A stretch of DNA of 49,092 nucleotides from a virus. Below, piece after piece: positions 10,852 through 37,200 of the stretch. Numbering within the stretch: position 1 is the stretch's first letter; each line of letters opens with the position of its first letter. Where the stretch lies: the IMG/VR virus record IMGVR_UViG_3300025151_000056, positions 1-49,092 of that record; one strand, written 5' to 3'. The position numbers and the translations under genes were made by a program. Under the pieces are notes generated by a model. That model saw only the letters and a list, made by a program, of their open reading frames with translations. It was not told the DNA's origin and searched no databases.

Positions 10852-13380
10852 GTGCCTGTATCGGGTTTAGCCTTTGAGAAGAAAACCGATACTGTATCTA
10901 AAGAAATACTAGATTTGTTTGAGAAAACTAGAGTAGCCTATCTTTCGGCTAGAGAAGACCCGAAAGAATATGAGAAGAAGTGGAAATCAATTGTTAAAGA
11001 AATCCGTGAGAAATTTGACGACATTGATAATGTAACTTCTGAATTAAAAAAAGTGATATCTGAAAAAGAACTATTCGCTGATGCAGTTTTAGACCCAAAA
11101 TCTTCTCAGGCAAAGACATTATTTTCAGCCATCAAAAAACTTAGATTTGAATCTGAGTTAGTATCTGACCCGTTCTCTAAACAATTAGGAGAACAGGTAA
11201 TAGAGGAATTAACAGAAAATGATTCTGTATTGGTTGCATTTATTCATTATGCCTTACGTTCACACAGTAATGTTATTCCTGATAAAGCATACAAAAAATT
11301 CAAACTAAAACCTGATAATATCACTCAAGGTATAAGTGGTTTAGATTTGAAAAAGGATGATTTGTCTTTGTATGTGATTGAACATTATGGCGGAGACAAG
11401 AAAGATACAAGACGAGTTGAATCTAGAATTAAAAAGGGTATGAAATTATTAGAGGAAATTTTTGTTGCTGCTTATGGTGAAGAAGAATGGTCTAAACTAG
11501 TTGCATTGGATATCAAAAAAGAAGATAAAGAAGATTCCATTGATTTCATAATCCCAAATAAACCAATGTATAGAATTTTTGAAATTAACGATATGAAAGA
11601 AATTTTAGGGTTTAGTGGAGAATATGTTGTTCAAGAAAAGTATGATGGAATGCGTATTCAGATACACAAAATAAACGGTAAAATTACTATTTATTCATAT
11701 AATGAGAAGGACATTACAGATAAATGTCCCGAACAAGTTAAAGCAATGGAAAAGAAACAATTTGAAGATTGTATTTTGGATGCAGAATTAATTTTATTCA
11801 AAGGGGATGAAGCATTACATCGAGCAGATACAATTTCACACGTCTTCAAGAAAGAAACAGAAGGAACTCTAAGAGCGCACGTGTTTGATATAATGCGACA
11901 TGAAAATAAGAATTTAACAGATGAACCTTTGCGAGAAAGATTGAATATTTTACTCTATCAATTCAGTCCACATTCAAGTGAAGATTTAGCATTCCCTTCA
12001 AAGAAAGATACTAGGGTTGCCGATTCTCTTAAAGAAGTAGAAGAATATTCTAAACTTATAATGGATATGCCTACTTCTGAAGGAGTAGTGATAAAAGACC
12101 ATGAATCTACTTATTTCATAGGTAAAAAGAAAAATCCAAAATGGATTAAGTGGAAGAAATTCATAGACCTTGATGTAATTGTATTGAATAAATCCAAAAC
12201 AAATAGTAACCTTTATTCTTACACTATGGGTATAGGGCCATTAAATGCAGAAGATTCTAGAAATTATAAGACTAAAGAATTAGATGGAAAAGAATACTTG
12301 CCGATAGGTAAAGCATTGAATACTAAAGAATCAGTAGAGATTGGTTCTATCATTCGTGTAAAGGTAGATGAAGTTAAGAAAAGTAAAAGCGGATTCAGTC
12401 TATATTCGGCAAAGGTAATTGAAATACCCGAAGTAACTCAGACAGATACATTACAGGCATTAGAACAACTATCTACTAAAACTAAAAAATCATTACAACA
12501 AATTGCTGAATTAGGTGAGGCATTTAAGGTAGCAGCAGGTTTGAAGAAATATACCATAACTGATGATATTCATGGAACTGCTGAAATTATTCTAAAACAA
12601 GATTTGGATGGTTTTACTGTTTATGGATTCAAGGGAGATTCCTTGATGGAAAAGAATGCTCTATACAACATTGATGTTTGGAAAGAACAAGTAACTGAAA
12701 TCACAAAAACAAAACGTTCTGAATTAAGATTGGCTATTAGAAACTTTATTTTTGAACAAAAAGAAAATGAAGAAATAGAATTCTCAGAAATTGTAGCGTT
12801 TGTTGCTTCAAAACACCCTGATGACTATGAACAGTTATTCGATAATGAGCAAAGAAAATTAATGAATTGGTTGAAAAAACAAGATGATTTGATTTACATT
12901 AATCCTAATAAATTCCAAATCAATGCTGATATTCTAGAAAAAGATAAAGATATCATAAAAAAAGATACTCCTGAAAGTGGAAATTTCAATGTTTTTATTT
13001 CAGATAATGATATCGAATTATTAATTGAAGCAGCAAATGAAAGAATGGTTTGGAGAATAGATTTAGAAGATGCAGAAGACGTTTACGAATTATTTGGTAA
13101 ATCTGCTAAATATCCTGCAAAGGTTGGTAAGACTATTCGTAAGGGTAAAAAAATAGACTCCGGTAAAATTATTTTTGGTGTGCAAAAAGACGGCTACCAT
13201 GAATACAAATTAGAAGGAGAAAAGTTTGAAACTAGAATACATTTCAGGGTTGTTCCTATTGAAGAACAAAATAGATGGATAGCATGGACAGGTAAAAAAC
13301 AAGAAATGTTAGACCCCGAAGATGATGAAGGCGTATGGATTATTTCGGAAGACAAATACGCAGATTTAGAATTTCCGTAA
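10852..13380 (+). CDS. ATP-dependent DNA ligase with long C-terminal extension
   Basis: 842 residues, GTG start after GGTGATTATTT. It seals nicks using ATP through a covalent lysyl-AMP. Visible motifs: I, E262-K263-YDGMR with adenylated K263; LDAELI at 309-314; III, HVFDIM at 343-348; IV, EGVVIK at 410-415; V, PKWIKWKK at 429-436. An OB-fold follows to about 525. The N-terminal region (1-235) is a shortened version of the helical DNA-binding domain of archaeal/eukaryal ligases. Residues 530-842 are extra: a linker helix, a winged-helix-like part (622-690) and a final beta-rich domain (715-842) with YHEYKLEGEKFETRIHFRVV, which distantly recalls phosphoesterase-type domains of LigD; I would not assign it. 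Normal archaeal ligases are about 550-600 residues. Its place among head genes rather than replication genes is odd. Confidence 0.94.
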   Translation: MPVSGLAFEKKTDTVSKEILDLFEKTRVAYLSAREDPKEYEKKWKSIVKEIREKFDDIDNVTSELKKVISEKELFADAVLDPKSSQAKTLFSAIKKLRFESELVSDPFSKQLGEQVIEELTENDSVLVAFIHYALRSHSNVIPDKAYKKFKLKPDNITQGISGLDLKKDDLSLYVIEHYGGDKKDTRRVESRIKKGMKLLEEIFVAAYGEEEWSKLVALDIKKEDKEDSIDFIIPNKPMYRIFEINDMKEILGFSGEYVVQEKYDGMRIQIHKINGKITIYSYNEKDITDKCPEQVKAMEKKQFEDCILDAELILFKGDEALHRADTISHVFKKETEGTLRAHVFDIMRHENKNLTDEPLRERLNILLYQFSPHSSEDLAFPSKKDTRVADSLKEVEEYSKLIMDMPTSEGVVIKDHESTYFIGKKKNPKWIKWKKFIDLDVIVLNKSKTNSNLYSYTMGIGPLNAEDSRNYKTKELDGKEYLPIGKALNTKESVEIGSIIRVKVDEVKKSKSGFSLYSAKVIEIPEVTQTDTLQALEQLSTKTKKSLQQIAELGEAFKVAAGLKKYTITDDIHGTAEIILKQDLDGFTVYGFKGDSLMEKNALYNIDVWKEQVTEITKTKRSELRLAIRNFIFEQKENEEIEFSEIVAFVASKHPDDYEQLFDNEQRKLMNWLKKQDDLIYINPNKFQINADILEKDKDIIKKDTPESGNFNVFISDNDIELLIEAANERMVWRIDLEDAEDVYELFGKSAKYPAKVGKTIRKGKKIDSGKIIFGVQKDGYHEYKLEGEKFETRIHFRVVPIEEQNRWIAWTGKKQEMLDPEDDEGVWIISEDKYADLEFP

Positions 13381-14627: not shown

Positions 14628-15986
14628 ATGAGTGGATATATTAGAACAATGAAAGATTTAGAGGCTGCTTCCTATGGAATGGGCGGTTCAGCCGGAAATG
14701 CTTTGCTAAAGGCAGCAGGTGTTGTTGGTGGTTTTGGAACTCCACACGATGCTGCATCAAATCCATTTAGTGCTGCTAGTAATTTGGGCGATTTGTATAA
14801 CGTTCTTTACGGGCAGAAAGTTTGGTCAATGCTAAATCAAGAGGTTAATCCTCTAGCAATGATAGCAAAGAGGCCATACACTTCTAGTGGTTGGAGAGTT
14901 TTGAAGTCAAGACCTGAAGGTGGTTCTGCTTCTTCCTTTACTATTGGAACAGGAGCGGCGGGTTCTGCTTCTCCTGCTGCTGATAAAATTGGTGGTGTTG
15001 GTGAAAACGCATCTTTAGGAACAGGAAATGATATTCCTGCAATTGCTCCTGAATATGAAAAACTATACGTAAGTCCAAAGACTGTTGCTCACTTGTTTGA
15101 GTTTTCAGAATTGGGTATGGAGTTGGCTGCAATTGATGATGGTGTTGGAGATATTCGTGCAATTATCCGTGAAGATATGGGTAAGCACCATGCAGAAACA
15201 CAAAGTAAGATGCTAGTTATGCCTCTAGAAAAGTATGATGATGGAACTGCAACAGGTATTGAGAAGAACTACACTTCACTATTGAAGATTGTATCTTCTG
15301 CTGCTGAAATTGCATCCATGTATAACGCTAACTTACTAAACACAGGTGCTAACAACGGAGATAACTCCGCAGTTGTCGCAGATGTTGTAAGACTATTCGG
15401 AACTTCCCGAACAGTAGGCGTTTCATCTAACTCCGCTACCGGAACTGCTTCTTTCCTAGATGCAGAAGTTGATTACGGAACAGATTATTCAGATGGTGCT
15501 AGAGTTCTAACTCTAAGCCTACTAAATGATATGATTCGCAGACTCCGACAAAATGGTGGTAGTCCAAAGGTTATTCTAACAGGATATGATACTATTCAAC
15601 ATATCTCAGACCTTCTACAAAGTCAAGAGCGATTTATGGATAGAAAGGAAGTAGTTCCTTCCCATAATGGTGTTCGTGGAGTAAAGGGTTCAGAAGTTGG
15701 ATTTAGAGTAGCAACATACTACGATATCCCAATTATCCCAACAAAGGATATGCCTTCTACCGGAAATGAAACAACAAATCCATTGAGCGATATCCTAATT
15801 CTAGATACCGACCACCTATGGCTATCTGTAATGAAACCAACCCAATACTTTGAGGATGGTATTACTAACGGAAACCCATTCGGTGTTGGAAAACTCGGAA
15901 ATCAGGGTATGTACCGAACAATGGGTGAAACAGGTTGTTCATTCTTTAAGGGACAAGGAAAGATTACTAACCTAAAGAGCGCATGA
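14628..15986 (+). CDS. major capsid protein, HK97 fold
   Basis: 452 residues, ATG with GAGGTGA leader. It follows the protease-scaffold, as usual. The N-arm is Gly/Ala-rich; the P-domain-like C-terminal half has VILTGYDTIQHISDLLQSQ, a variable loop with GVRGVKG, then ATYYDIPIIPTKDMP and ILILDTDHLWL, the order seen in HK97-type capsid proteins. Codon choice is distinct: by eye lysine is about 16 AAG to 6 AAA and leucine favours CTA, whereas the neighbouring large charged proteins use mostly AAA and TTA. This fits very high expression. There is no long helical delta domain at its N terminus, consistent with scaffolding being supplied by the protease fusion. Confidence 0.92.
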   Translation: MSGYIRTMKDLEAASYGMGGSAGNALLKAAGVVGGFGTPHDAASNPFSAASNLGDLYNVLYGQKVWSMLNQEVNPLAMIAKRPYTSSGWRVLKSRPEGGSASSFTIGTGAAGSASPAADKIGGVGENASLGTGNDIPAIAPEYEKLYVSPKTVAHLFEFSELGMELAAIDDGVGDIRAIIREDMGKHHAETQSKMLVMPLEKYDDGTATGIEKNYTSLLKIVSSAAEIASMYNANLLNTGANNGDNSAVVADVVRLFGTSRTVGVSSNSATGTASFLDAEVDYGTDYSDGARVLTLSLLNDMIRRLRQNGGSPKVILTGYDTIQHISDLLQSQERFMDRKEVVPSHNGVRGVKGSEVGFRVATYYDIPIIPTKDMPSTGNETTNPLSDILILDTDHLWLSVMKPTQYFEDGITNGNPFGVGKLGNQGMYRTMGETGCSFFKGQGKITNLKSA

Positions 15987-17240: not shown

Positions 17241-17651
17241 ATGCCGACATTAGATACAGATACTCGACTAATAATGACTATACTTTTTGTTGGTGCAGTT
17301 AGTGGCGTAAATGTTTATTTCTTTTCTCAATATGGTGCAGGATTTCTGAACTTCTATGGTGCTTACTCTCTATCCCTAATGTTTGGGGTATTGACTGTAG
17401 GCGGAATAATGATTATCAAAGCATTATTTGATTTGATTCTCAATGAGTATATTGAAGACTTATTGCTTCAACGTAGAATTGAGGCTTATTGGCGAAGAAA
17501 GGCCAAAGAAGAAGATACTAGAAAGAGAATCCGTGAATCTCTCAGAACATACGAATCTTCGGTTTACACCCCGCCATCATTCGTTTCTCCAATGCAACAA
17601 TCAAATGATAATTCTCTTTCTGCTACATTTTTAACAGAATATCAAGAATGA
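17241..17651 (+). CDS. small membrane protein, two transmembrane segments
   Basis: 136 residues, ATG with GGAGATTAAAGA leader. Two hydrophobic segments are clear at about residues 8-27 (IMTILFVGAVSGVNVYFF) and 38-61 (GAYSLSLMFGVLTVGGIMIIK). They are followed by a highly charged cytoplasmic-type helix (QRRIEAYWRRKAKEEDTRKR) and a disordered tail. It is the first of three consecutive membrane or membrane-associated genes ending in the GTPase. A membrane protein inside the head-tail cluster might be a virion membrane, entry or exit component; role unknown. Confidence 0.72.
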   Translation: MPTLDTDTRLIMTILFVGAVSGVNVYFFSQYGAGFLNFYGAYSLSLMFGVLTVGGIMIIKALFDLILNEYIEDLLLQRRIEAYWRRKAKEEDTRKRIRESLRTYESSVYTPPSFVSPMQQSNDNSLSATFLTEYQE

Positions 17652-17665
17652 TGTGAGGGATATGC

Positions 17666-17890
17666 GTGGTATCAGAATTACTAATGGGATTTGATGAATC
17701 CACATTAGCATACGATTTACAACGAGCGCATTCTGCTGATGTTTGGTTTTTAAGAGCAAGGTTTTGGCTTTGGGGAACTGCTGCCTCAATATGTAGTTTT
17801 CTTTTAGGTCATGCCTTACCGTTTTGGGGAGTAAATCTCTACGGTTGGGCGTGGGGAGGTATAGTTAATTTTTGGAATCATTTATGGTGA
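17666..17890 (+). CDS. small tryptophan-rich membrane protein
   Basis: 74 residues from GTG at 17666 (ATG at 17684 is an internal alternative), with GTGAGGGAT upstream. An N-terminal amphipathic part is followed by a hydrophobic, aromatic C-terminal half: about 46-59 (GTAASICSFLLGHA in context FWLWGTAASI...) and a terminal run of Trp/Gly (LYGWAWGGIVNFWNHLW). It contains eight or more Trp in 74 residues. It looks membrane-inserted or membrane-interfacial. The GTPase gene starts 4 bases after its stop, implying coupled synthesis. No family recognised. Confidence 0.65.
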   Translation: MVSELLMGFDESTLAYDLQRAHSADVWFLRARFWLWGTAASICSFLLGHALPFWGVNLYGWAWGGIVNFWNHLW

Positions 17891-17894
17891 TTAA

Positions 17895-18566
17895 ATGTCT
17901 ATAATGGCAGGTTTCGCAATATTAGTTGTTGAGGCTACAAATAAATTATATCAAAGATTACATTCAATAAATTTCGGTGTCTATGGAGCGTCAATGGCCG
18001 GAAAAACTACATTACATAATCAACTTAGAACAAGAGGTGAAGTTCCCACAATCCAAGAAAGAACGGTTGGTAGAAAACGAGCCACTAGAAAATATGTAAA
18101 ATTAGATGGAGATGCACACACAATCAAAACCGCAGATATAGGAGGACAGTCAGTTTATTGGGGTGAATGGATAGAAGACATGAAAAGAAGACGTACTAAA
18201 TATGTAATATTCATGTTAGATGATAGACATTTATCGAAACATTATGATATAGAACAACAATTATGTTGGACTTTTTTAGTTGATACAATATGTTCAAATG
18301 AATGGTATTATAATGGAAAAAGAGTAAAAAAGAAACAATCAGATTATCCGATTGCAGTAGGGCTATGGGCTAACAAATATGATTTGTGGAAAGACAAATA
18401 TGATTATGAGGGAGATATGGCTAACCATCCAATATTTGAATCATTCAAAACAGGTATGCAAAAATTAAACGATAAAGGAATTCCATGTTACAAATATGTT
18501 GTAAGTGCAAAATCAGATTCAGAAATGGTGTATAGAGGAATATTAACAATGATAAAAGACTACTAG
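17895..18566 (+). CDS. Arf-like small GTPase
   Basis: 223 residues, ATG with GGTGATTAA leader. G1/P-loop GASMAGKTT at 31-39; likely G2 threonine in PTIQ at 51-54; G3 DIGGQ at 81-85; G4 WANKYDLW at 158-165; G5 SAKS at 204-207. The DxGGQ followed by a Trp-containing helix, PTI-type switch 1 and ANKxDL are the Arf/Sar/Arl pattern rather than that of translation factors. Residues 1-25 are hydrophobic to amphipathic (MSIMAGFAILVVEATNKLYQ), like the membrane-binding N-terminal helix of Arf proteins. An insertion around 134-150 (YYNGKRVKKKQSD) is basic. All nucleotide-binding residues seem intact, so it is probably an active GTP-dependent switch at a membrane. It sits directly after two small membrane-protein genes. 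Virus role unknown. Confidence 0.86.
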   Translation: MSIMAGFAILVVEATNKLYQRLHSINFGVYGASMAGKTTLHNQLRTRGEVPTIQERTVGRKRATRKYVKLDGDAHTIKTADIGGQSVYWGEWIEDMKRRRTKYVIFMLDDRHLSKHYDIEQQLCWTFLVDTICSNEWYYNGKRVKKKQSDYPIAVGLWANKYDLWKDKYDYEGDMANHPIFESFKTGMQKLNDKGIPCYKYVVSAKSDSEMVYRGILTMIKDY

Positions 18567-18574
18567 GTGATAAG

Positions 18575-19249
18575 ATGAGTATGCAGTATCAACCCAATTC
18601 ATTTATAGGTGCAGAATCAACAACTGTTCCTAACGCATTTTTAGATAGAATATCTCAAGCGAGAGCAGCAGGAACAGTAATGGCTTATGAATATAAAAGC
18701 CATAAACAAAAGAAACAATTGAAAGAAATGATTACAATTTTAAAACCTGAAAAAAAGAAATTTTTAGGAATAAAATATGGATTTAAATTCAATATAAAAG
18801 ACCGTTGCGTAGTATGTGGAACACAGAAAATATGGAGTTCTAATGATAAAGTTAGACCTCCAATACCCCTGCATAAAGTTAGAAAAGGCTATCCAATGAG
18901 GGGAACTTATTGCAATAAACACGCAGAACTCCATCGTCAATATGAAATGCTTGAGCAGCAAATTTTAGCAGAAGAACATGGGCTTTCCTTTTCTGCTTAT
19001 GTTCCCTCAGTTGCTAAGACTTTGAATCCGTTAGCAACAGGCCCATTAACTTCTTTAAAACAAGAAGACATACAATCACTTTCTTCATTAGGTTGGGCTA
19101 TAAAACCCCCACAAATGGGGTCAGAATCGAAAGAAGAAGAAATTTTTAGACTATTAATTGAAACTAATTCAATTAGTGAAAGAATCAAAACTTTATTGAG
19201 CGAAGGCATTGTGATACCCATTGAAGAAGAAGCGGAGAGTGATGATTGA
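18575..19249 (+). CDS. zinc-knuckle protein, unknown
   Basis: 224 residues, ATG with AGGTGATAAG leader. A probable zinc site is formed by C78-x2-C81 (CVVCG) and C113-x2-H116 (YCNKH). Before it is a basic region (SHKQKKQLK...KPEKKKFLG), after it a helical segment and a Pro-rich linker, ending in a very acidic tail (EEEAESDD). It follows the GTPase gene by 8 bases and overlaps the next gene by 1 base, so it belongs to the same unit; it could be a partner or effector of the GTPase. No named family recognised. Confidence 0.68.
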   Translation: MSMQYQPNSFIGAESTTVPNAFLDRISQARAAGTVMAYEYKSHKQKKQLKEMITILKPEKKKFLGIKYGFKFNIKDRCVVCGTQKIWSSNDKVRPPIPLHKVRKGYPMRGTYCNKHAELHRQYEMLEQQILAEEHGLSFSAYVPSVAKTLNPLATGPLTSLKQEDIQSLSSLGWAIKPPQMGSESKEEEIFRLLIETNSISERIKTLLSEGIVIPIEEEAESDD

Positions 19250-19941
19250 TGGGTCTTTTTGGCACAAGTAATGGCAGTATTTCTAATCAAATTACTGCTC
19301 AAGGACAAACTAATTTTAAGACAATGAATAATCTTTTAACTCTACAGGAAAACCATGTTGAAGAATTTTTTCAATATCATGGAGAAAATTTCCTAAGTAG
19401 TTTTGAAAAGTTATTAGAAGATGTAATTGAAAGAGTAGTTAGTAGAATGCTTACTGATTTGAAATTTAGTACAGGTTCTAGTGGTGAAATCACCATGCAC
19501 CCTGATGCTATGCGTGAGTATGAAAAAATAACTGCTGAAAATATTCAATTAGATTTACAGAATTTATTGGCTACTGCATTGAATAGTGAAGTAATTGTTC
19601 AACGTAGAATGGCTAAACAACAATATTTGGAATCTCAAGGATTTGCAGTTCCACAGGAACAACAACCACAACAACAATTGCCTATGGGACAACCTAATGC
19701 TCCTGCAAATATTCAAGGCGCACCTGCTATGGGCGGAATGAATCAACAAATGATGCAACAACAAATGGCTTTTAACAATCAATCAGGTTATCCTATTCCA
19801 CCATCAGGTTATGACCAATATAACAATCCATATTGGATTGACCCCGCAACAGGACAACCAACATATAATCCACCGCAAAGTGGTTTAGGTTTAGCCGCAG
19901 GATTAGGTAAAGCAGTAGCATGGGCGAAGTGGTTAGCATAA
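19249..19941 (+). CDS. Q/P/N-rich protein with helical N-terminus
   Basis: 231 residues from ATG at 19249, overlapping the previous stop (TGATG); a TTG at 19246 is the alternative. Residues 20-120 are helical and amphipathic. Residues 125-215 are a low-complexity stretch rich in Gln, Pro, Met, Asn and Gly (for example EQQPQQQLPMGQP, MNQQMMQQQMAFNNQ) followed by PYWIDPATGQPTYNPP. The C-terminal 19 residues (GLGLAAGLGKAVAWAKWLA) form a hydrophobic or amphipathic helix that could touch membrane. It may be a virion or membrane-remodelling partner of the GTPase unit; inference only. Confidence 0.68.
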   Translation: MGLFGTSNGSISNQITAQGQTNFKTMNNLLTLQENHVEEFFQYHGENFLSSFEKLLEDVIERVVSRMLTDLKFSTGSSGEITMHPDAMREYEKITAENIQLDLQNLLATALNSEVIVQRRMAKQQYLESQGFAVPQEQQPQQQLPMGQPNAPANIQGAPAMGGMNQQMMQQQMAFNNQSGYPIPPSGYDQYNNPYWIDPATGQPTYNPPQSGLGLAAGLGKAVAWAKWLA

Positions 19942-19957: not shown

Positions 19958-22381
19958 ATGCTAATGAAAGAAGACAGAATTAGAATACCTGAAAATAAAT
20001 CAGTTAATCTCCCTGTTCTTTCTTATTCTCAATCAGATACTTCTACAACTAACTTTGATACTTTGATGCGTGATGATGAAATTCTTCATGCTATGATAGG
20101 TAGTTTGATAGAAGGACTTCCTGCGGGTTTTGGTAAAGGTGTTAGTAATTATATTAATACTGCATCTAAAAGAATGAGATATATTGGCAACTATAAATCC
20201 GAAGATACTAAAGAAAACGATTCTATTAGAAAACTAAAAAGAAATAGATTCAATTCATTAAAAAAAGAAAAATTTGAAGATGTAATAAATCACAAGGATT
20301 TACCGGATGATTTGAAAAATAAATTAGAATTAGATAAACTATTCAAATCAGGTACTTTGTATAATTATCTTTTTACTGATGTTTTGATAGACAAAAAAAC
20401 AAAACGCCGTATTAGTGCTTTTGACCCAACAGTAGAACAGATATGTAATCCTGAATTGATTACATCTAGATTTGGAGACATAGGCTTTCCCCTTGAAGGG
20501 AGTGAATATGAATATGAAGAAGGCATTAAGAGAGAGCGTGAAAAATTAAAGATTACAATAAGTAGAGATGTGGAAAACTTCGTTAAAGCAATGCAAGAAA
20601 ATAAAGCATTGATATATCCTGAAATGTTGAAAGGTAGTATTACGGTAGAAAAAGACGAAGAATCTATTGAAATTATTTTTGATACTCATAAATACATTCA
20701 ATTAGTCTTTAAAAAAATATTTCCAGATATGAATTTTCAAGACCTTTCAAATAATAAAGCGTTACAAAACAGATTTAAAGAAATATACAATATGAAAGTT
20801 TTAGATAAAAAATCAATATCAACTCGTAAAGTCGAAAAACTATTGGCGAATTCATCTTTTAATTTATTAGAAGTAGAATCTGAAACAGTAGAAGGTAAAG
20901 TTGATTTAGACAAGTTAAAACTACTTAACTATATAGAAAAGATTAACCCCGCAACAGGAGAACCAACTGCGGTAACAACAAAAAATGTATCTCTTAGGCA
21001 ACTTCAATCTTTAGACCCAAGTAAAGAAATAAACGTTTCAAATGTTAATGATGTGATTAATTCTATTGATAAACAAACACTCATTGGAAATGTTTTAACT
21101 AGTTTAATTACTCCTACAGATTCAATTCTAACAACAGGAAAATTTAGTTTCTTTATTGATATTAATTCAGAATTTCAGGAATTAGATAGCATAGATAAAT
21201 TTACAACTTTCTTATCTAAAGATGAAATCATTGAAAATCTTGAAGGTGAAATGTTTGATATTCTAGTATTAGTTGTTATAGCAGGATATTATGTTGATAT
21301 TTTGAGAGAAACTTCTGAGAAGTTTGAAGGAGAGACTTTAGAATCTCAATCTAAAGAACTTGAACAATTTTACGATGAAGACGAAAGAGTTAGAACGTTT
21401 TTAAATGAAAATTCAGAAGAATTAGAACAATTAAAACAAAAGGCAGTAGAATCACAAAAAGATGATAAAAAAGAAAGCGTCAAAGAAATCGAAGAAAGGG
21501 TCGAAAGAGAATACATTGATGATGCCGTGAGAGAAAGAAAAAAATTATCTGATGGACTACCAATAATTTTAGTTGGAGAAACAAAAGCAGGTAGAAAATC
21601 ATTTGAGCGTACACTTAGAGAATTAGGACAAGAAATTTCTAGTGGTAAGGTATTTCAGAAAAAAACATATGAAAGATATTTTGAATTAGTTGATAAAGAA
21701 ATAGAAAATTTTGATAAGAAATCTATTGAATATCAAGTTTTAGATAATTTACTTTCAACATTTTATGATTTAACTAAAAAAGATAGTGCAATATTTACTA
21801 GTGCAAATCAAGTATATGATTCTGAGGTTCTAGATGAAATGTTAAGATATGTGAATGAATTTTCTGTTGAAGACATGACGGAAATAGATGAAGATGGAAA
21901 TATAGATGAAAGTAGGTTAAATAATCTTAGAAAAGCATTTACTAGTGAATTTAAAAGCGATAAAAAAGGCAAATTAGATGAACAGACTGAAAAGGCAATA
22001 CTGTGGTACAATTCTTTAACAGAAGAAGATAAAGAAAAATTAGAAAAAGATAAAAAGATAGACTCAAGAAATGTTTTAGAAGCATATCTTGAAAATAAAG
22101 ATAAAAAAATAAACATCAAACGAGGTCTTGCGTATTTTAGAAGAATAGGAAAAGGACTAGATGAAAAATCTGGGAAAGTAGTTAGAAGAAAAGAATTCGG
22201 TACAGATTTCTCTAATTCAATTTCTCTTGATGCTAAAACAATTCAAAGTGTTCCTTCAAAAAGACCCTTTGATAAAGGAAAAATAACAATTGGTAGTAAA
22301 AAAATAACTAAACAAGATAGTCAGGTTCTATTAAGACTATCAAGAAACTATGACCGACTAGAAAGATATGTGAATAAATGA
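19958..22381 (+). CDS. 807-residue charged protein, unknown
   Basis: ATG at 19958 about 7 bases after GGTTGGGG (ATG at 19964 also in frame). The first 70 residues (SYSQSDTSTTNFDTLMRDDE, GSLIEGLPAGFGKG) look globular; the remainder is Lys/Glu/Asp-rich and mainly helical, with NPATGEPTAVTT near residue 331 and one hydrophobic helix (MFDILVLVVIAGYYVDILRE) at about 431-450 that could be a core helix or membrane-associated. Lysine is mainly AAA and leucine TTA. No family recognised. It lies between the GTPase unit and the connector genes; an internal virion or ejection protein is conceivable but unsupported. Confidence 0.72.
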   Translation: MLMKEDRIRIPENKSVNLPVLSYSQSDTSTTNFDTLMRDDEILHAMIGSLIEGLPAGFGKGVSNYINTASKRMRYIGNYKSEDTKENDSIRKLKRNRFNSLKKEKFEDVINHKDLPDDLKNKLELDKLFKSGTLYNYLFTDVLIDKKTKRRISAFDPTVEQICNPELITSRFGDIGFPLEGSEYEYEEGIKREREKLKITISRDVENFVKAMQENKALIYPEMLKGSITVEKDEESIEIIFDTHKYIQLVFKKIFPDMNFQDLSNNKALQNRFKEIYNMKVLDKKSISTRKVEKLLANSSFNLLEVESETVEGKVDLDKLKLLNYIEKINPATGEPTAVTTKNVSLRQLQSLDPSKEINVSNVNDVINSIDKQTLIGNVLTSLITPTDSILTTGKFSFFIDINSEFQELDSIDKFTTFLSKDEIIENLEGEMFDILVLVVIAGYYVDILRETSEKFEGETLESQSKELEQFYDEDERVRTFLNENSEELEQLKQKAVESQKDDKKESVKEIEERVEREYIDDAVRERKKLSDGLPIILVGETKAGRKSFERTLRELGQEISSGKVFQKKTYERYFELVDKEIENFDKKSIEYQVLDNLLSTFYDLTKKDSAIFTSANQVYDSEVLDEMLRYVNEFSVEDMTEIDEDGNIDESRLNNLRKAFTSEFKSDKKGKLDEQTEKAILWYNSLTEEDKEKLEKDKKIDSRNVLEAYLENKDKKINIKRGLAYFRRIGKGLDEKSGKVVRRKEFGTDFSNSISLDAKTIQSVPSKRPFDKGKITIGSKKITKQDSQVLLRLSRNYDRLERYVNK

Positions 22382-22390
22382 CGTGATACT

Positions 22391-23467
22391 ATGGCAAAAC
22401 TATCCTCCCCAAGTGATTTTACGAATATAAATGTGAATTATGCAATTGGAAATGGTTACTATACTACCCATACTGATGTATCTAACCTGTTACAAATATC
22501 TGCATTTGGTGATAGCACAACACCAACAAGAGCCGAAGTTGGTAAGATAATTAAAAGAGTAGAGGAAAAGATAGACGATGCAATCAAACTATCGTATCGT
22601 CCTATCATTTACAAAGACGAATATTATAATTTTGAAGGAGTGAATGAGAGCCATTATCCATTGAGAAAGTATCGAGATTATGTAGGTTTTATTCAATTAC
22701 AACACCCAAAAGTGCAGAAGATAGTTAGATTAGAAGTTTGGCAGAATGATAAATATGTTGATTTGGCTTCTGCTACTGCTAAGATAAAAGTTCCATCTTC
22801 AACTACTGAATCAAATTGGAATATTACATTAACCGCAGGGCCACATTCATTTACTTTAACAGAAAATACACATTTCTACGATTCGTTTGGCCCTAAAACT
22901 ACTGCGAGTCAAATCGTTGATGCAATCAATGAAGTGTTTCCTGCTAAAACTGCTAGATTTACAGGAGAAACTGCTGCTAAATCTGTAACTGCTACCGGAA
23001 ATACTTCAATTAATGTTTCAGATTTCTTTTATGCAACTACTGATAGTGAAGCAGGAGATACTGTTGTGATTTCTTCGTTATTGCTAGGAGATGACGGTTC
23101 AGCCTGTACTGTTAATTCTACATTTGGTACTGTTACGAATTTTACAGACCATCAAGACCAAAGAAGGTTAGGAGATTATTGGACTATCAATTCAGAATCA
23201 AAAATATTTTTCCTAAGACAATATCCGTTTTTACAAAACCATTCAATTAGAGTTACTTATGTTAGTGGAGATTCTAGAGTTCCTGCTCCAATACATGAAG
23301 CCGCTACTAAATTAGTTGCAGCAGAAGTAATTCGACATGATGATAACTCAATTATGATTGCTGAGACAGGTTCTAACATTGACCTGAAAGCCAAACACGA
23401 TATTCTGAAAGAAGAAGCAATGGAAATTATCAATGGTAAAAAGGAAATGATACACTTTATTTCGTGA
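22391..23467 (+). CDS. head-tail connector (adaptor) protein with inserted beta domain
   Basis: 358 residues, ATG after GTGATACT. The N-terminal helical part (TPTRAEVGKIIKRVEEKIDDAIK) and the C-terminal part (APIHEAATKLVAAEVIRHDD ... KHDILKEEAMEIINGKK) together resemble the gp6/gp15-type adaptor fold that sits under the portal. Between them, about residues 115-250 are a Ser/Thr-rich beta region (TAGPHSFTLTEN ... GDTVVISSLLLGDDGSACTV) inserted in the fold. Position before the tail terminator and tube genes agrees. Family call moderate; insertion makes it larger than typical adaptors (about 100-200 residues). Confidence 0.72.
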   Translation: MAKLSSPSDFTNINVNYAIGNGYYTTHTDVSNLLQISAFGDSTTPTRAEVGKIIKRVEEKIDDAIKLSYRPIIYKDEYYNFEGVNESHYPLRKYRDYVGFIQLQHPKVQKIVRLEVWQNDKYVDLASATAKIKVPSSTTESNWNITLTAGPHSFTLTENTHFYDSFGPKTTASQIVDAINEVFPAKTARFTGETAAKSVTATGNTSINVSDFFYATTDSEAGDTVVISSLLLGDDGSACTVNSTFGTVTNFTDHQDQRRLGDYWTINSESKIFFLRQYPFLQNHSIRVTYVSGDSRVPAPIHEAATKLVAAEVIRHDDNSIMIAETGSNIDLKAKHDILKEEAMEIINGKKEMIHFIS

Positions 23468-29314: not shown

Positions 29315-30388
29315 ATGGTTAGTGTACATATTGGAAAGAAAAGAGCATTGGTCTTTCCTGTTATGTGTGATGGTCATTTAAAATTAGACTATGATGCTAA
29401 TGATTCTACAGAATCTTTTTGGGGTTATGATGGAACATTTACATTTGAAGCAATTGTTACTCCTTATGATGTGAATGGTTTAGGACACAGAAATTCAGGT
29501 AAAGGACAGACAGATAGTGCAAAAACTCCACCATTCCCAAACTATAGTTTAGATAATCACGCAGATACTACTTCTAGTTATGAAAGTGTACAATATTTTG
29601 GCGCAGGTAGAAATACACACAAGATGATGCTATTTCATAATCCAAATTTTAAGGTATATTTACAGAATACTACTACAACTACCTTTAACCAACCTTCACA
29701 ATACCGTATTGTTGTAGAAATAAGGGACACTACAGACCCTTCTAACCCAATTACTACTGTAACTACTACTAATCCAATTATACGAGCAGAACACACGTTA
29801 AATGGGTATTATAACCATAGTTCTACTAGCACTAGTTTATACAATGGATTCAAATCTGATTATAGATTGTTAGATTCAAGCACTACAATCAGTTCAAACA
29901 CAATTACTGCTTCAAATTCAATCTATAATATATTGGAAAACGGTGTAGAAATCTTCAATTCAAGTGGTCAAAGTTTAGGAGTCATTTCTAATATTGCAAA
30001 TGATGGGTCTAATACTACTTTTGATGTTCCAAACAGTTCTTTACACACTTCTAACATTTATTATCATAATCAAAAAGAAGCACTATATTTAGAACAGACA
30101 TACAAAATATCTTGTGTGTTTATTGATAGTAAAACAATTCAAATTTATGTTAATAACTCATTAATCAAAACCGGAAATGTATCTATTGGGACTTTTGCAT
30201 TCGATGGTTCTGATTCATACATAGGTCAAGATGCTACACAATCGGCAACAGACAGAAAAGGAACACAATTCATGGGAGAAATACATGAAATAGGATTGTT
30301 TAGAGGGCGTAAAATCAGCACGACTTTAGATACTTTAACTCCACACTATAAAGATATCATGTTTTACTATTCCTTTGGTGATGTTTAA
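29315..30388 (+). CDS. tail protein with LamG/concanavalin-like lectin fold
   Basis: 357 residues, ATG with AGGTGATACA leader. The opening strands (SFWGYDGTFTFEAIVTPYD, about residues 34-55) and the closing pattern (FMGEIHEIGLFRGRK, about 320-334) are characteristic of laminin-G/concanavalin A-like jelly-roll domains that bind glycans. Between them are Ser/Thr/Asn-rich loops and a strand pair YKISCVFIDSKTIQIYVNNS, also typical of the fold. It probably sits at the tail tip and touches cell-surface sugars. Its TAA stop overlaps the ATG of the hub gene. Confidence 0.68.
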   Translation: MVSVHIGKKRALVFPVMCDGHLKLDYDANDSTESFWGYDGTFTFEAIVTPYDVNGLGHRNSGKGQTDSAKTPPFPNYSLDNHADTTSSYESVQYFGAGRNTHKMMLFHNPNFKVYLQNTTTTTFNQPSQYRIVVEIRDTTDPSNPITTVTTTNPIIRAEHTLNGYYNHSSTSTSLYNGFKSDYRLLDSSTTISSNTITASNSIYNILENGVEIFNSSGQSLGVISNIANDGSNTTFDVPNSSLHTSNIYYHNQKEALYLEQTYKISCVFIDSKTIQIYVNNSLIKTGNVSIGTFAFDGSDSYIGQDATQSATDRKGTQFMGEIHEIGLFRGRKISTTLDTLTPHYKDIMFYYSFGDV

Positions 30389-33300
30389 TGGCTAAAATAG
30401 ATGGCAAAATGACCTATGTTTTAACCAATGGTGTTAGTGAAACTAATGTTACTTCTCTTTATACAAGTAGAGGAACTGAAATAACTAACAATAGGACTTC
30501 TCTTGATACTTCTGTAAATCCTATTGTAGCCGTTACAGGAACTAACAATGAAAATTTTGCTATTTCTCCGAGTTATTTATCTAGTGCTATGTTTATGGAA
30601 ATACGAAATGCGCCTCATATTAGCACAATTTCAAATGATTATAGTGATAAAATAGGAAATAGAATACTGCCAACAAACGACAGTATTTCCACATATGCTA
30701 CCTGTACGCAAAACTGTTCATCTAGTAAAATAAAAGTTTATGATTCTACGGTATCTAGTGCTACAACAAATCGGCTTTTTAGATATGGTTCAAGTGATTA
30801 TCCTAGTTCAAATACAGTAGGATTGGACATTGATACATATGATTATTTTATTTTAATCAACCCTGATATTATTGATTCTACAACAAGAGAAGATTCTGTT
30901 AGGCCACATTTTGCTAAAATAACTAAAATAACCACCTTTGATGAATTCGGAGATGGATTAGAATTTGAACCTAAATATCCATCATTTATTTCACAAGGCA
31001 CTAAATTTGAAATTTTCAAAGGCCCAATCAAAACAGATACTAGCGTAGTAGCAGTTAGTTATGGTTTGAGGGGAGATACAGGTGCTTCAACTAAAAAATA
31101 TGATGAATTGTGTATTGTAAATAGACCTACATTTTATTTCTATAATGATAGGTTAGAAGTAAAAGACCAATTAGATTATGCTGAAAAGTATAACTTAACT
31201 TCACAACGTTGGTGGCTTGAAACTGAATCATTGGAAACTCAATCAAATATTGCATATTCACAATATGATGAAGGTAGCACAAGTAAATACTTTGAAGTTA
31301 CTGAAAGTGTTTATAGTAGAATATGTGCAGGTATGTCTATTTTTAGTGATGCAGGTGTGTACTTAGGAAATATTGAGCAAATGTATACACTAACATCTCC
31401 TACTCGATATAGATTTTTTTTGGATTATGCTAGAGTTGCTATTTCTGCTGCTAGTGGAGCAGATTATAAAATAGGTAAAACAGTTCAAAATGTAGCCTTT
31501 GTAACTCAAGGTAGATATCGAGGAACTATTCCTAATATTGGCAGACAGAAATTAGATGCAATATTAGTAGATAATAATAAAATTGCTGATGATAGTGATT
31601 CTAATTTAGACCCTATTTTTTGGGATAAATCTTTTACAAATATGAAAAGAGATTCTAAAGATGAGGTAACAAATCCATTATTTAACACTAAAACTGCTCC
31701 TTCTAGATATATTACATTAGAGCCTACAACTCTAAAAACAAGTAATATTACTTCTATTAATAGTGTTAATGTAAATAGCAGTAGTGGAAAAATATCTAAA
31801 TTGGCTCAAATTGAAATTAATGATTTAGAGGCAATTTATAATTCAAAAATAAAATTAGGAGACGATTTAAAAATTTACAATTCTTTAACTAATGGAAATG
31901 TCTCATCTTACACTATACCACACAAAGTAACTTACAATTCTACAGATACTAAAGTAAGAATAAGTAATGTAGGTATTGAAGAAGATTACAAAAAGTCATC
32001 ATCTATTAAATCAGATACTATTGTTTTGATTGAAGATTATTTCTATATCGTTGATACAATTGATGATAGGAATGCAGCAGGATATCAAGAATTTACAACT
32101 AAGGCTCGTAGATTAAATACATCAGACTATTCTACGTGGTCGGTAACTGCTAACATAGAATATTTTGATGATGTATCTATGAGAGTTGCTAGATTCAATG
32201 ATAAGTTTAGAGTAGATATTGAATCTGATACAGAAGTTGATTATGATTCTAATAATAGATTGACGATTAATAATGTAACAATAGAAAAAGAAAATACTTC
32301 ATTGTATAACTCTATTCTAAATGTAAGTAGATATAATAAACACAATAATTACATTGATTATGTAGATAAAAAGAATAGATTAGTAACGCTACAAACACCC
32401 GATAAATTATATCAAAAATCTAACATTAATCGTTTTTATTATTATGATGAAGGTGGATTTTCAATTAACAAGATGATATTTGATGGGTATGTTGAGTCTG
32501 CAATATCTAATGCTTCTGTTAATGCTCATTTAAGTAAAGGCGGTATATATTATGAAGTTGAAGGTAGAGATAAAACTGCAAACTTACTTACAGATGTTAT
32601 TACAGAAGATTTACAATTTACAGAAGATATTATTCATTCATCTTTGAATCCTCTTTTTGACTTATCAAGTACACAAACTGCTACCGGAACTGCGTTATCA
32701 GGAAAAACTGTAGTGGTTTCAGGTAATAATACATTGAGTAGATACACTTTACTTTTCGACAATAGCGGTAATCTGATTGGTGAAGTTAATACTAGCACTT
32801 ACAGTAGCCCGAACACAACACATACATTATACGATGATGTTTATGTTACTACATTACCTAATACTACAATAAAATACCATTATCCTTTTTCCGATTCAAA
32901 TTACATTTCTGGGACTAAAGCATTAATGGCTAATCCTGCTATGTCTGAAAGAACTGATGATTTTCAATCTATATCAGAAAAAGGATTAGTTATTGAAAGT
33001 GGTTTTGAAATAGATAATTCATTTGCACAAACAGATTTAGTCGGCAAATCTAATAGTGGTAAATTCAATACAGATTTAACTTTAGGTTTTGATTTAGCAT
33101 CTGCAAAAGCAATATCTACGGATAATGATAGCCATTTTGCATTTAAATTAACAAATGAAAATTTAGTAGATATTGATTATTTGAGTAAAACATTTGTGAA
33201 CGCTGAAATGTTTGATGTTGTTGAAACAATTAAGAAAGATGATAATACTACAACGCTTTCTATTGCTCCAAGAATGCCTATTGTTATGGGTAGGGTAGAA

Positions 33301-36300
33301 AATAATTCATTAGATACTAGAATATCTAGTACAGACAAAATGTATCTAGTTAATACTAATATTAGTGATGCCGGATTTATCCATAGGTTACAAAATACGT
33401 TTGATACATATTTTGGAGCAAAAGATACACTTAGATATTGGGATTTACAACGTTTTGGTTCGGATTCTATATCATCAAATCTTGATAGTATTTATAGTAA
33501 TAACAACAATATTCAACATATAAACGGTTATTTAATTGGTTATCCTATAACATCTGTCGGTGGATTAGATTCAGCAACAACTACTACTAACGATTTACGA
33601 CCAATACACGGTAGTAATGTTGTAAATAGTGATTATAGTTACTTGACTGATTTTGGTTTTCATGCAAAACCTCCTATACACTACATTAAAAGGGGAAATT
33701 GGAATACAGGTTTGTATCATAAAGATGAATCTCCTGTTAATAATTTAGAAAATATAGATAAAAAGGCACAACCATATGAGTTATTTGCGGTTGGAGATTT
33801 ATTTCCATATTCAAAATTAAGATATAATAATTTAGGTTATTCTGCTTTTAGTTTTACAGATATGGGCATTTTATTGAAATCTAATACTACTACAGGAAGT
33901 AGTGTTTCACATACTAACTATAACGGCCAAACTAAAGAAAACAAAACACAAGAAATTAACTTTGAAAGAAATAAAATAAGTTCTTCTTCAATTACTGCAA
34001 ATAATACATTTAGATTTGGGATAGTTAGATTAGTAGAAGCAACTTTTGATTGGCACTTTAATCCTGTTGATGTAGAAAATTTTCAAGAAGATTCTCTTAA
34101 ATCATTTGATTATCAAAGATATAGAGTTAAAGACTTAGGAAGTGGAACTGATATAATTAATTTATCAGGAACAACCATGACGAATAATACAGGTGTTGCA
34201 CTCACTTTAGATACAGGAGATGCCTTCTTTAATCAAGAGGATGGCTCTTTGGTTGCAATTTTCGCAGGTTCAAATAATACAACTATAGGAAATGGAAATA
34301 CTACTAGTATAATTTTACCTGTTGGGAATGGGGAATATAAAGTATATCGTCATAAATATTATGCCAAAAATTCATTTAGATTATATTCTAGTCCAAACAC
34401 AGGAGTAAATGATTTAGTAAATGATTCTTATATAACTGATATACATTTGTCTAGGGTTTTGGTTGCAAGAACACCTGTTTATACTGCTGATGGTAAATTT
34501 AAATTGGCAGCAACCATAAAACATGGTACAGGTGATTATAGAATTCCTTCTGTTTATCTTCCTTTAATTTCCGAAAATCGTGGGACTAATTCAACTTTTA
34601 GTAATGAACCCACAACATCTGCTTTTCATATAGATGATAATTGGACTCAAGATACGAATATTAGTAATAATACATATAGACATATGCACATGAGTAGGGT
34701 TTTGGCTGCACACACAAGTAATAATTTTAATGCAAATAACAAAGATTTTTCAGATAGTTTTGGTCTTCCTGTAAATTCAAGTGTTTATGCAAATTGTGGT
34801 GCTATTTTTACAGACTTCAGGTCATTAACGAATAATAGTAGTACAATAATTTCTGATGTAGTTACTAGTTGCCCGTTGGTTGCTAATAACTCAACTAGTG
34901 ATGACCCCTATGCTGATATTTCAGATGATTATACTACACACCAACATTCTCCTACTTTAGTTACATTTAATTATAGCGGGCAAGTCATTGAATACGCAAT
35001 TGAAGGAATAACATCAGAAAAAGTATTCTTACAAGATAAAGAAGGGGCTTCAATAGATTTCTTAACAGATGGAGATTATAATGAACATATTTCAGTTGCT
35101 CCTGCTGAGGCTGATGTTGGTGAATTATATTCAGCAAATATGTTTTTGAAACCCAAATTTGACTTTAGTTCAGGTGATATTAGTATTAATGGTAGTACAA
35201 TAACAATTAATTTAGGAACTGCTACAAATAATAATCATACATGGATGGAGTATATGCCCGATTTAACAGGATATTATTTAGTGTCTGAAAGAGGTATTGA
35301 AAGTGTGGAAGATATTTATCCGAGTATAGCAAATAATCCAATAAAAGATGTTAAACTAGATATTTCTAGCGTTCCAGAAATTCATCCAAGATTAATGCTA
35401 AAGGTTATTTCTCATACTAAAACCGCTCCTAACACTTCTACATCAACACCATCAACTCATACATTAACATTTGATAAAAATATTAGTAATCTTTCTTTTG
35501 CTTTTCAAGTAGCAGCCGATAATCCTTTAGGAAACCCTCCAACATATACTAATTCTAGTAATGCTTTTGGCAATACTTTTAGATTAATGAGGTTAGCAGA
35601 AAAAACATTTGATGAAACTGAAAATATAGAACTGAATAAGTTTTTCCACTCTAATATAGGAAATATGAAAAATAAAACTAGAATTAATTTCTCTACGGGA
35701 GACACTATTGAAGAAGCAGGGGTTCTTTCTAAATATCAAGAAGGACTATTTTCTATGTATGTTCCTATTTCTATTGATGCAATAGACAAAGATGCAGAAT
35801 CAGATGGATATTTGGAACGAAGAATAATAACAGAATCTACATCTTTATTTACTAATCAAACAAAATCTATGTTTGTTACAGATGGAAACATTAAACAAAA
35901 TAAAATGATAGAAATTACAAAATCAACTATTGGCACAACTGATAATGTAAAATTAACTTTTGATGGAAAAATGAATGGTAATGGAGTAGTTTCTTTTGGT
36001 GAGATTTTTACAATTAATTTACCTAATTCACCTAAACTAAACAATATTGAAAGTTGTTATATCGGTACAACCTTTTCAATAGGCGAACAAACTGAAAACT
36101 ATATTGAAAAAATAAGTAGAAATCAAAATTTAGATTTCAACTACATTGATAGTTCTACAACATATACAGGTAATATTGTAAGTAGTGTTAGTAGCAATAC
36201 AATCACTTGTTCTGCTAATGTTACAGGTATTTCTGTAGGAGATGTTCTTTATACAAACGATGGATATCTATTAGGTGAAGTATCTTCAATATCTAGTGCG

Positions 36301-37200
36301 AACATTGTTTTAAGCGAATTGTTTTACACTCCTGCTCAATATGATGAAATTAAAATATTCAACAAAAAAACGTATATTTCTACTGATGACTTTGTGAATA
36401 CAAGTGCATTTGATATTGTAAAAAATCTATCTGCGAGAAAAGGCATGGACTATAAAATACAAAATAATTCTGTTTTATTAAGAAATTTACAAGATGTTGA
36501 TAGGCTTAGAAAAATAAATATCAACCATAAAAAACATGATTTAATTTCAGTAAATTCAGATGAATCGTTGTTCGATTATGCTAACAAAGTTGTGGTTGTC
36601 GGTAATGGAGTTAGAACAAGTGTTTCAAATCCCGTAACTGATTCATGGATGGAAGGAAATCTCAAAACAGTAACTCATATTGATTCTAGCATTAGAACAA
36701 TTACGGAAGCAAAGGCGAAGGCTCAAAATTTATTAGATTTATATTCTGATACATCTATTAGAAAAATAACATTACGAGTTAATAGAACAGGATTAGAAAT
36801 GTTAGAAGCAGGAGATATTGTTAGTTTAGATTTTGCACAAAGAGGAATTCCAAAAGGAGATTACATAATTTTTGAAATAAGTAATTTACTTTCAGGTGTT
36901 TTAGAATTAAAAGTTGGAACATATAATAAAACAATAGCAGAAAGATTAACTGAATTGAATATCCAACAAAGAACTACTAATTCTTCTGTCCTTAGTCAGA
37001 ATGCTATTGTAGAAGATTCTGCATTAGTGTTGCGTGATTTTCTTAGACTTAGTGTGGCTTCGATTGAATATACAATCACCGGAACTGCGCCTACGGCAAA
37101 CATGGGATTCGATGATACACTAGGATTTGGAGAAGTAGTAGGATTTGAAACATCAACAGGACAAGAATTGGCGGATTATTATGCGGAGGATAATTTATGA
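30388..37200 (+). CDS. giant tail hub / tip protein
   Basis: 2270 residues, ATG overlapping the preceding stop (TAATG). It is rich in Ser, Thr, Asn and Asp with many beta strands, as in tail-tip proteins of the gpJ/Tal type. The segment around residues 1990-2190 (FDIVKNLSARKGMDYKI, SVNSDESLFDYANKVVVVGN, AKAQNLLDLYSDTSIRKITL, GLEMLEAGDIVSLDF) resembles the baseplate-hub fold found in gp27/gp44-like proteins, where a late-control-D-like domain prepares the tail end. No hydrolase motif was seen. Its ATGA overlap with the next small gene suggests linked expression. The hub call is by order, size and the C-terminal pattern. Confidence 0.72.
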   Translation: MAKIDGKMTYVLTNGVSETNVTSLYTSRGTEITNNRTSLDTSVNPIVAVTGTNNENFAISPSYLSSAMFMEIRNAPHISTISNDYSDKIGNRILPTNDSISTYATCTQNCSSSKIKVYDSTVSSATTNRLFRYGSSDYPSSNTVGLDIDTYDYFILINPDIIDSTTREDSVRPHFAKITKITTFDEFGDGLEFEPKYPSFISQGTKFEIFKGPIKTDTSVVAVSYGLRGDTGASTKKYDELCIVNRPTFYFYNDRLEVKDQLDYAEKYNLTSQRWWLETESLETQSNIAYSQYDEGSTSKYFEVTESVYSRICAGMSIFSDAGVYLGNIEQMYTLTSPTRYRFFLDYARVAISAASGADYKIGKTVQNVAFVTQGRYRGTIPNIGRQKLDAILVDNNKIADDSDSNLDPIFWDKSFTNMKRDSKDEVTNPLFNTKTAPSRYITLEPTTLKTSNITSINSVNVNSSSGKISKLAQIEINDLEAIYNSKIKLGDDLKIYNSLTNGNVSSYTIPHKVTYNSTDTKVRISNVGIEEDYKKSSSIKSDTIVLIEDYFYIVDTIDDRNAAGYQEFTTKARRLNTSDYSTWSVTANIEYFDDVSMRVARFNDKFRVDIESDTEVDYDSNNRLTINNVTIEKENTSLYNSILNVSRYNKHNNYIDYVDKKNRLVTLQTPDKLYQKSNINRFYYYDEGGFSINKMIFDGYVESAISNASVNAHLSKGGIYYEVEGRDKTANLLTDVITEDLQFTEDIIHSSLNPLFDLSSTQTATGTALSGKTVVVSGNNTLSRYTLLFDNSGNLIGEVNTSTYSSPNTTHTLYDDVYVTTLPNTTIKYHYPFSDSNYISGTKALMANPAMSERTDDFQSISEKGLVIESGFEIDNSFAQTDLVGKSNSGKFNTDLTLGFDLASAKAISTDNDSHFAFKLTNENLVDIDYLSKTFVNAEMFDVVETIKKDDNTTTLSIAPRMPIVMGRVENNSLDTRISSTDKMYLVNTNISDAGFIHRLQNTFDTYFGAKDTLRYWDLQRFGSDSISSNLDSIYSNNNNIQHINGYLIGYPITSVGGLDSATTTTNDLRPIHGSNVVNSDYSYLTDFGFHAKPPIHYIKRGNWNTGLYHKDESPVNNLENIDKKAQPYELFAVGDLFPYSKLRYNNLGYSAFSFTDMGILLKSNTTTGSSVSHTNYNGQTKENKTQEINFERNKISSSSITANNTFRFGIVRLVEATFDWHFNPVDVENFQEDSLKSFDYQRYRVKDLGSGTDIINLSGTTMTNNTGVALTLDTGDAFFNQEDGSLVAIFAGSNNTTIGNGNTTSIILPVGNGEYKVYRHKYYAKNSFRLYSSPNTGVNDLVNDSYITDIHLSRVLVARTPVYTADGKFKLAATIKHGTGDYRIPSVYLPLISENRGTNSTFSNEPTTSAFHIDDNWTQDTNISNNTYRHMHMSRVLAAHTSNNFNANNKDFSDSFGLPVNSSVYANCGAIFTDFRSLTNNSSTIISDVVTSCPLVANNSTSDDPYADISDDYTTHQHSPTLVTFNYSGQVIEYAIEGITSEKVFLQDKEGASIDFLTDGDYNEHISVAPAEADVGELYSANMFLKPKFDFSSGDISINGSTITINLGTATNNNHTWMEYMPDLTGYYLVSERGIESVEDIYPSIANNPIKDVKLDISSVPEIHPRLMLKVISHTKTAPNTSTSTPSTHTLTFDKNISNLSFAFQVAADNPLGNPPTYTNSSNAFGNTFRLMRLAEKTFDETENIELNKFFHSNIGNMKNKTRINFSTGDTIEEAGVLSKYQEGLFSMYVPISIDAIDKDAESDGYLERRIITESTSLFTNQTKSMFVTDGNIKQNKMIEITKSTIGTTDNVKLTFDGKMNGNGVVSFGEIFTINLPNSPKLNNIESCYIGTTFSIGEQTENYIEKISRNQNLDFNYIDSSTTYTGNIVSSVSSNTITCSANVTGISVGDVLYTNDGYLLGEVSSISSANIVLSELFYTPAQYDEIKIFNKKTYISTDDFVNTSAFDIVKNLSARKGMDYKIQNNSVLLRNLQDVDRLRKININHKKHDLISVNSDESLFDYANKVVVVGNGVRTSVSNPVTDSWMEGNLKTVTHIDSSIRTITEAKAKAQNLLDLYSDTSIRKITLRVNRTGLEMLEAGDIVSLDFAQRGIPKGDYIIFEISNLLSGVLELKVGTYNKTIAERLTELNIQQRTTNSSVLSQNAIVEDSALVLRDFLRLSVASIEYTITGTAPTANMGFDDTLGFGEVVGFETSTGQELADYYAEDNL

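Follow-up and report, generated by a model that had tools for sequence, protein, structure and literature searches.

The open reading frame at 17895-18566 of the window (the whole stretch of viral DNA analysed, 49,092 nucleotides, IMG/VR record IMGVR_UViG_3300025151_000056) almost certainly encodes a genuine Ras-superfamily small GTPase. The protein founds a Magrovirales-specific, virus-only family, small GTPase switches being already known as a kind. Its gene belongs to a cassette of five genes (TM136, TM74, the GTPase, g224 and g231; Table 1) located among the virion genes of a tailed virus that resembles the magroviruses (order Magrovirales). The GTPase probably has a part in particle assembly or release at the membrane of the host, by a previously undescribed route.

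Table 1. Features of the GTPase gene, its cassette and two virion genes, in window coordinates
Feature	Position	Strand	Description
Major capsid protein (MCP)	14628..15986	+	Cluster anchor; phrog_24667 (7e-25), SU10_MCP; Druskaviridae homologues
TM136	17241..17651	+	Predicted TM helices at ~10-28 and ~44-62; basic C-terminal tail, presumably cytosolic
TM74	17669..17890	+	73 aa, GTG start, one TM helix, invariant RAHSAD; stops a few nt short of the GTPase start codon
Small GTPase gene	17895..18566	+	Open frame, 223 aa (coordinates include stop)
Predicted N-terminal helix, codons 2-22	17898..17960	+	AF2 helix, hydrophobic throughout residues 2-12 and amphipathic over 10-22
G1/P-loop GASMAGKTT, residues 31-39	17985..18011	+	G36, K37, T38, T39 invariant (228/228)
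G2/switch I RTVG, residues 56-59	18060..18071	+	T57, G59 in 228/228
G3/switch II DIGGQ, residues 81-85	18135..18149	+	Invariant W89 and W92 downstream
G4 NKYD, residues 160-163	18372..18383	+	N160, K161, D163 invariant
G5 SAK, residues 204-206	18504..18512	+	S204, A205, K206 invariant
g224	18575..19249	+	Invariant CxxC...CxKH, several invariant Arg/Lys
g231	19246..19941	+	Conserved N-terminal helices, Q/N/M/P-rich middle, conserved C-terminus YWIDP..GQ..Y.PP.SGL...AW.KWL
Putative head-tail adaptor	22391..23467	+	Downstream of cassette; phrog_17057 (5e-19, unknown-function family); position and likeness to HVTV-2 gp126

Motifs, family and fold of the GTPase

The gene product is a single-domain protein. 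The sequence-only reading had named five motifs in it, GASMAGKTT, PTIQ (residues 51-54), DIGGQ, WANKYDL (158-164) and SAKS (204-207), and all five were confirmed in that order at 17895-18566. IMG/VR was searched with the single GTPase sequence as query (79 confirmed stretches) and with the GTPase alignment as query (409 stretches). The G motifs GxxxxGKTT, RTxG, DxGG(Q/E), NKxD and SAK were all kept in 242/242 full-length homologues from IMG/VR loci, and 15 G-motif residues (G36, K37, T38, T39, T57, G59, D81, G83, G84, N160, K161, D163, S204, A205 and K206) were invariant across 228 aligned GTPases. The motif match is thus far beyond chance. On grounds of this invariance the protein is plausibly an active switch.

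Two details of that reading had to be revised. Of PTIQ, the second motif named there, the Thr at position 52 varies (E, Q, D, T, S or A), and the invariant switch-I motif is RTVG, whose T57 lies five residues past the PTIQ Thr and fits the PTIG of Arf. Nor is DxGGQ with a catalytic Gln a general trait: position 85 is Glu in 155 of the 228 sequences and Gln in 73, the window protein among the latter. In a FastTree phylogeny built with column 85 left out of the alignment, Glu was inferred to be ancestral, at the root, with three Q/E changes as against ~37 for shuffled labels. Seven residues past the catalytic position (+7), switch II carries a Trp, a trait of the Arf and G-alpha families. Among other small GTPases of prokaryotes, those of Rup group 1 are known to lack the G3 Gln (PMC4316618). 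The hydrophobic N-terminal helix was borne out, residues 2-12 being hydrophobic inside a predicted helix spanning residues 2-22; judged by hydrophobicity and moment, this stretch is a short one without clear amphipathic character, and for that reason it may pack inside the protein.

Pfam matches were weak and spread over several families (MMR_HSR1, SRPRB, Roc, Arf and Ras), with SRPRB, Roc and MMR_HSR1 as good as Arf. The window GTPase scored 16.7 bits against PF00025 (Arf), under the gathering threshold of 22.3 bits, and 22.2 bits against PF01926, barely above the cut-off of 21.9 bits; a genome search with PF00025 gave no genome above cut-off. NCBIfam small_GTP was matched by 11/11 family members tested (best E 2.5e-6), the single bit score given being below cut-off. 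No specific family for the GTPase was found in PHROGs, NCBIfam or Pfam, and no close match in PHROGs or, by tblastn, among GenBank phages. Against the PDB, an 81-row GTPase profile returned no match at E 0.05 and a 30-row profile returned weak matches only, the best being the archaeal 8oun (E 0.013). A species-level genome scan for a cellular homologue, which reaches close relatives only, returned two virus contigs; both are magrovirus by synteny, and thus no cellular ancestor was found in that scan. These contigs (L114 and L115; NZMJ01000101 and NZMJ01000024) belong to a public MAG that bears the label Maricaulis sp. and are misbinned virus DNA. The magrovirus and archaeal tailed-virus papers searched do not mention a small GTPase; an earlier 'GTPase' label may exist elsewhere in the literature.

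Two AlphaFold models of the GTPase were compared with known structures (pLDDT 70.7 and 73.0). Foldseek with the 70.7 model placed small GTPases and G-alpha proteins in all 50 best rows (prob 1.00). VIA-align with the 73.0 model was led by Arf1, Arf6, Arl and G-alpha (Z 11-12, rmsd mostly 3.3-4.2, ~155-190 residues), Arf1/Arf6 aligning at Z ~12 with rmsd 3.3-3.5 over ~156 residues and G-alpha, Rag/Gtr and Asgard ArfR tying with Arf within Z 1. The 73.0 model is of moderate quality, with values <50 at residues 47-53 and 55-60; it is poor at the P-loop and switch I and so does not fix the subfamily placement. The predicted model has a Ras-like G-domain fold, with G1-G5 in order in a single domain of ~20-25 kDa. 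'Arf-like', the term of the sequence-only reading, is fair as a description, since Arf/Arl and G-alpha top the fold comparison (tied with Rag/Gtr), and is not supported as a claim of Arf family membership: PF00025 stays under its gathering score, searches gave no ArfGAP, ArvB/ArvC or Roadblock partner, and neither PTIQ nor the Gln of GGQ is conserved.

A P-loop ATPase or a dead pseudo-GTPase that resembles a switch would agree with the weak sequence scores and with the Glu that most relatives have in the catalytic place. This is extremely unlikely: NKxD and SAK, the motifs that specify guanine, are invariant in 228/228, and the top fold matches are all GTPases.

The virus and the five-gene cassette

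The window record (49 kb) was assigned to the magroviruses because of its synteny and sequence identity to long loci over the virion cluster. Magrovirales were recognised by a genome of ~90-110 kb, a family B polymerase (PolB) split into N and C parts, a chaperonin in some clades and a relation to Druskaviridae. PolB was in two pieces, mostly separate ORFs, in 14/14 long relatives (84-103 kb); the window itself is without a PolB match. A GroEL-like chaperonin was present in 6/14 of them and not in the others, so the GTPase family occurs in magrovirus clades with a chaperonin as well as in clades without one. Two-piece PolB and chaperonin have been described for magroviruses of Poseidoniales (PMC10768690, PMC5332604, PMC12999244), the abundant marine archaea that are the hosts of Magrovirales (PMC5332604, PMC12999244). 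The window's capsid, portal and tail tube match those of haloarchaeal Druskaviridae and related archaeal tailed viruses.

As had been claimed, the GTPase gene stands inside the virion gene cluster, preceded by terminase, portal, protease and MCP genes and followed by those for head-tail adaptor, neck, tail tube, chaperone and tape measure. The adaptor is identified partly by inference from position and likeness. HVTV-2 gp126 (226 aa) was considered as a counterpart of the GTPase and rejected, as it resembles the adaptor instead. Among the other genes of the window, 10852-13380, in the head gene cluster between portal and protease, encodes an 842-aa protein with an ATP-dependent DNA ligase domain (PF01068, 4e-29) that is kept in relatives. 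A fast-evolving gene lies between g231 and the adaptor (19958-22381); its 807-aa window version, which has a P-loop-like VGETKAGRKS, was found only in a 98%-identical relative, and in other loci the same gap holds diverged proteins, mostly of 400-900 aa, in several sequence clusters. Two giant ORFs (30388-37200 and 37544-46372), 2270 and 2942 aa long, matched no Pfam family above cut-off and are presumably tail fibre/adhesin proteins.

The order TM136, TM74, GTPase, g224, g231 on one strand was seen, for the genes found, in 111/111 loci first examined, with median gaps of 9-19 nt between cassette genes. TM74 was missed at an 80-aa ORF limit and is likely overlooked by annotation. The GTPase was carried by 53/53 sufficiently long loci fetched via the capsid gene and was single copy in 14/14 long contigs (84-103 kb). 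It was kept in every related magrovirus genome examined and is therefore not a chance acquisition, the outcome that the sequence-only reading had left as a refutation. In a wider capsid search (Druskaviridae to magroviruses; 43 loci with >=4.4 kb downstream counted), all five genes were present in 19 loci and none in 24, with no intermediates. A motif scan of the cassette-less capsid loci found no other GTPase-like ORF, and no GTPase was found in HVTV-2. The all-or-none pattern is not independent proof of joint function, because one gain in one clade could yield the same.

The CxxC...CxKH of g224 is a probable zinc site, and we speculate that g224 is a candidate regulator of the GTPase, or a GAP. 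Profile searches gave no match above cut-off for an ArfGAP domain or, in 15 records, for OapB (PF09846), OapC (PF09845) and MglB/Roadblock (PF03259).

Constraint, co-divergence and possible function

Median dN/dS was 0.059 for the GTPase, 0.060 for TM136, 0.080 for g224, 0.087 for the adaptor, 0.111 for the capsid protein and 0.135 for the protease (Nei-Gojobori medians, pairs with dS 0.1-1, pairs not independent). The GTPase had the lowest value among eleven virion-cluster genes tested and TM136 the next. Divergence of the GTPase was correlated with that of g224 (r 0.89), the cassette partner that tracks it best, TM136 (r 0.86) and capsid (r 0.81), which argues for common inheritance with the virion genes and against exchange.

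We tentatively propose, as quite possible, that the GTPase, TM136, TM74, g224 and g231 form one functional unit, a membrane-docked switch of late assembly or egress. Briefly, TM136 and TM74 would be placed in the host cytoplasmic membrane late in infection with their tails in the cytosol. The GTP-bound GTPase would dock at the membrane via its hydrophobic N-terminal helix and/or TM136/TM74 and there recruit g231 together with g224, the probable zinc protein and a candidate for GAP or effector. The recruited complex would organise head-tail assembly at the membrane, or remodel the membrane for particle exit, and GTP hydrolysis would reset the switch. We infer nucleotide cycling, membrane docking, interactions within the cassette and the role in assembly or egress.

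A soluble role is a doubtful alternative that retains appreciable weight: the GTPase would act as an assembly checkpoint on capsid, portal or neck, or be a packaged part of the virion, and have no membrane role. Its gene lies between the capsid/decoration genes and those for adaptor and neck, and constraint on it exceeds that on the capsid protein. One of its best Pfam matches is PF01926, a family that includes assembly GTPases as well; some GTPases proofread ribosome assembly. The membrane proteins TM136 and TM74 are, however, always directly upstream, and Druskaviridae make related heads and tails without a GTPase. The same two membrane proteins, small and conserved, could be read as holin-like pore formers gated by the GTPase, which would then time lysis, and no clear holin or endolysin match was obtained among the window genes scanned. 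This is highly improbable, as TM74 and TM136 match no holin family, the cassette position is not usual for lysis genes, and TM136 is as constrained as the GTPase, such constraint being unusual for holins.

The co-divergence data bear on a further alternative, that the GTPase imitates or titrates a small GTPase pathway of Poseidoniales (vesiculation, polarity or division) and so reprogrammes the cell or keeps other viruses out. We consider this quite unlikely. The GTPase gene lies among virion genes, and its divergence keeps pace with that of the capsid gene; genes for host interaction tend to be more patchy in occurrence and to evolve faster. The species-level genome scan was without a close cellular homologue. 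In favour of this alternative, giant viruses have small GTPases with Rab/Ran/Ras annotations, i.e. of a host-like type, and archaeal hosts use such switches (PMC10927574).

The membrane-docked unit proposed above has a cellular parallel. In Haloferax, deletion of ArvA/OapA abolishes RNA-carrying vesicles and overexpression makes the cells release more vesicles; ArvA carries an N-terminal helix, and its operon partners show a zinc-ribbon and a SepF-like fold (PMC10927574). A known exit system is absent from most archaeal viruses, and how tailed archaeal viruses assemble in and exit from wall-less cells is an open question (PMC4456609), for which a GTPase with two membrane partners is a concrete candidate. 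Magroviruses are ubiquitous in the surface ocean and were discovered through metagenomics alone. A bolder version, which we regard as unlikely, is that they own a dedicated membrane-remodelling GTPase machine, with two receptors, a switch, a zinc regulator and an effector, serving membrane assembly, budding or exit. If true, Arf/ArvA-type switching would extend to tailed viruses, and this would be their first virus-encoded membrane-remodelling GTPase system, with an exit unlike holin-endolysin lysis or viral pyramids.

Comparison with known systems

Druskaviridae (HVTV/HCTV) share with the window homologous capsid, portal and tail tube, gene order and a similarly placed TM protein, gp125, but have no homologue of the GTPase, TM136, TM74, g224 or g231. 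Giant viruses also encode small GTPases, and these made up most of the named small-GTPase matches among the 50 matches listed from a viral structure library, none of which was labelled as a tailed virus. They differ in belonging to viruses of eukaryotes and being of Rab/Ran/Ras type by annotation, and we know of none in a conserved virion cassette.

Arf/Arl/Sar proteins (PF00025), including Asgard ArfR (8oum/8oun), resemble the viral GTPase in fold, AGKTT P-loop, TIG-like switch I, DxGG, switch-II Trp at +7, ANKxDL and N-terminal helix. The viral protein differs in falling under the Pfam Arf cut-off, in a G5 of SAK versus CAT in Arf, in often having Glu for Gln, in a longer switch I-II hairpin, and in its viral operon with no ArfGAP. 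ArvA (OapA), as described (PMC10927574), shares a single domain, an archaeal lineage, an N-terminal helix, a Pfam ambiguity between PF01926 and PF00025, and an operon with a zinc-binding protein (in the virus, a probable zinc site). Unlike ArvA with ArvB/ArvC, the GTPase is a viral gene whose partners are TM136, TM74, g224 and g231, with no OapB/OapC domain above cut-off. As no OapB/OapC, ArfGAP or Roadblock match exceeded its cut-off, 'works like' is preferred to 'is': by analogy, the magrovirus GTPase would work like Arf and ArvA while belonging to neither system.
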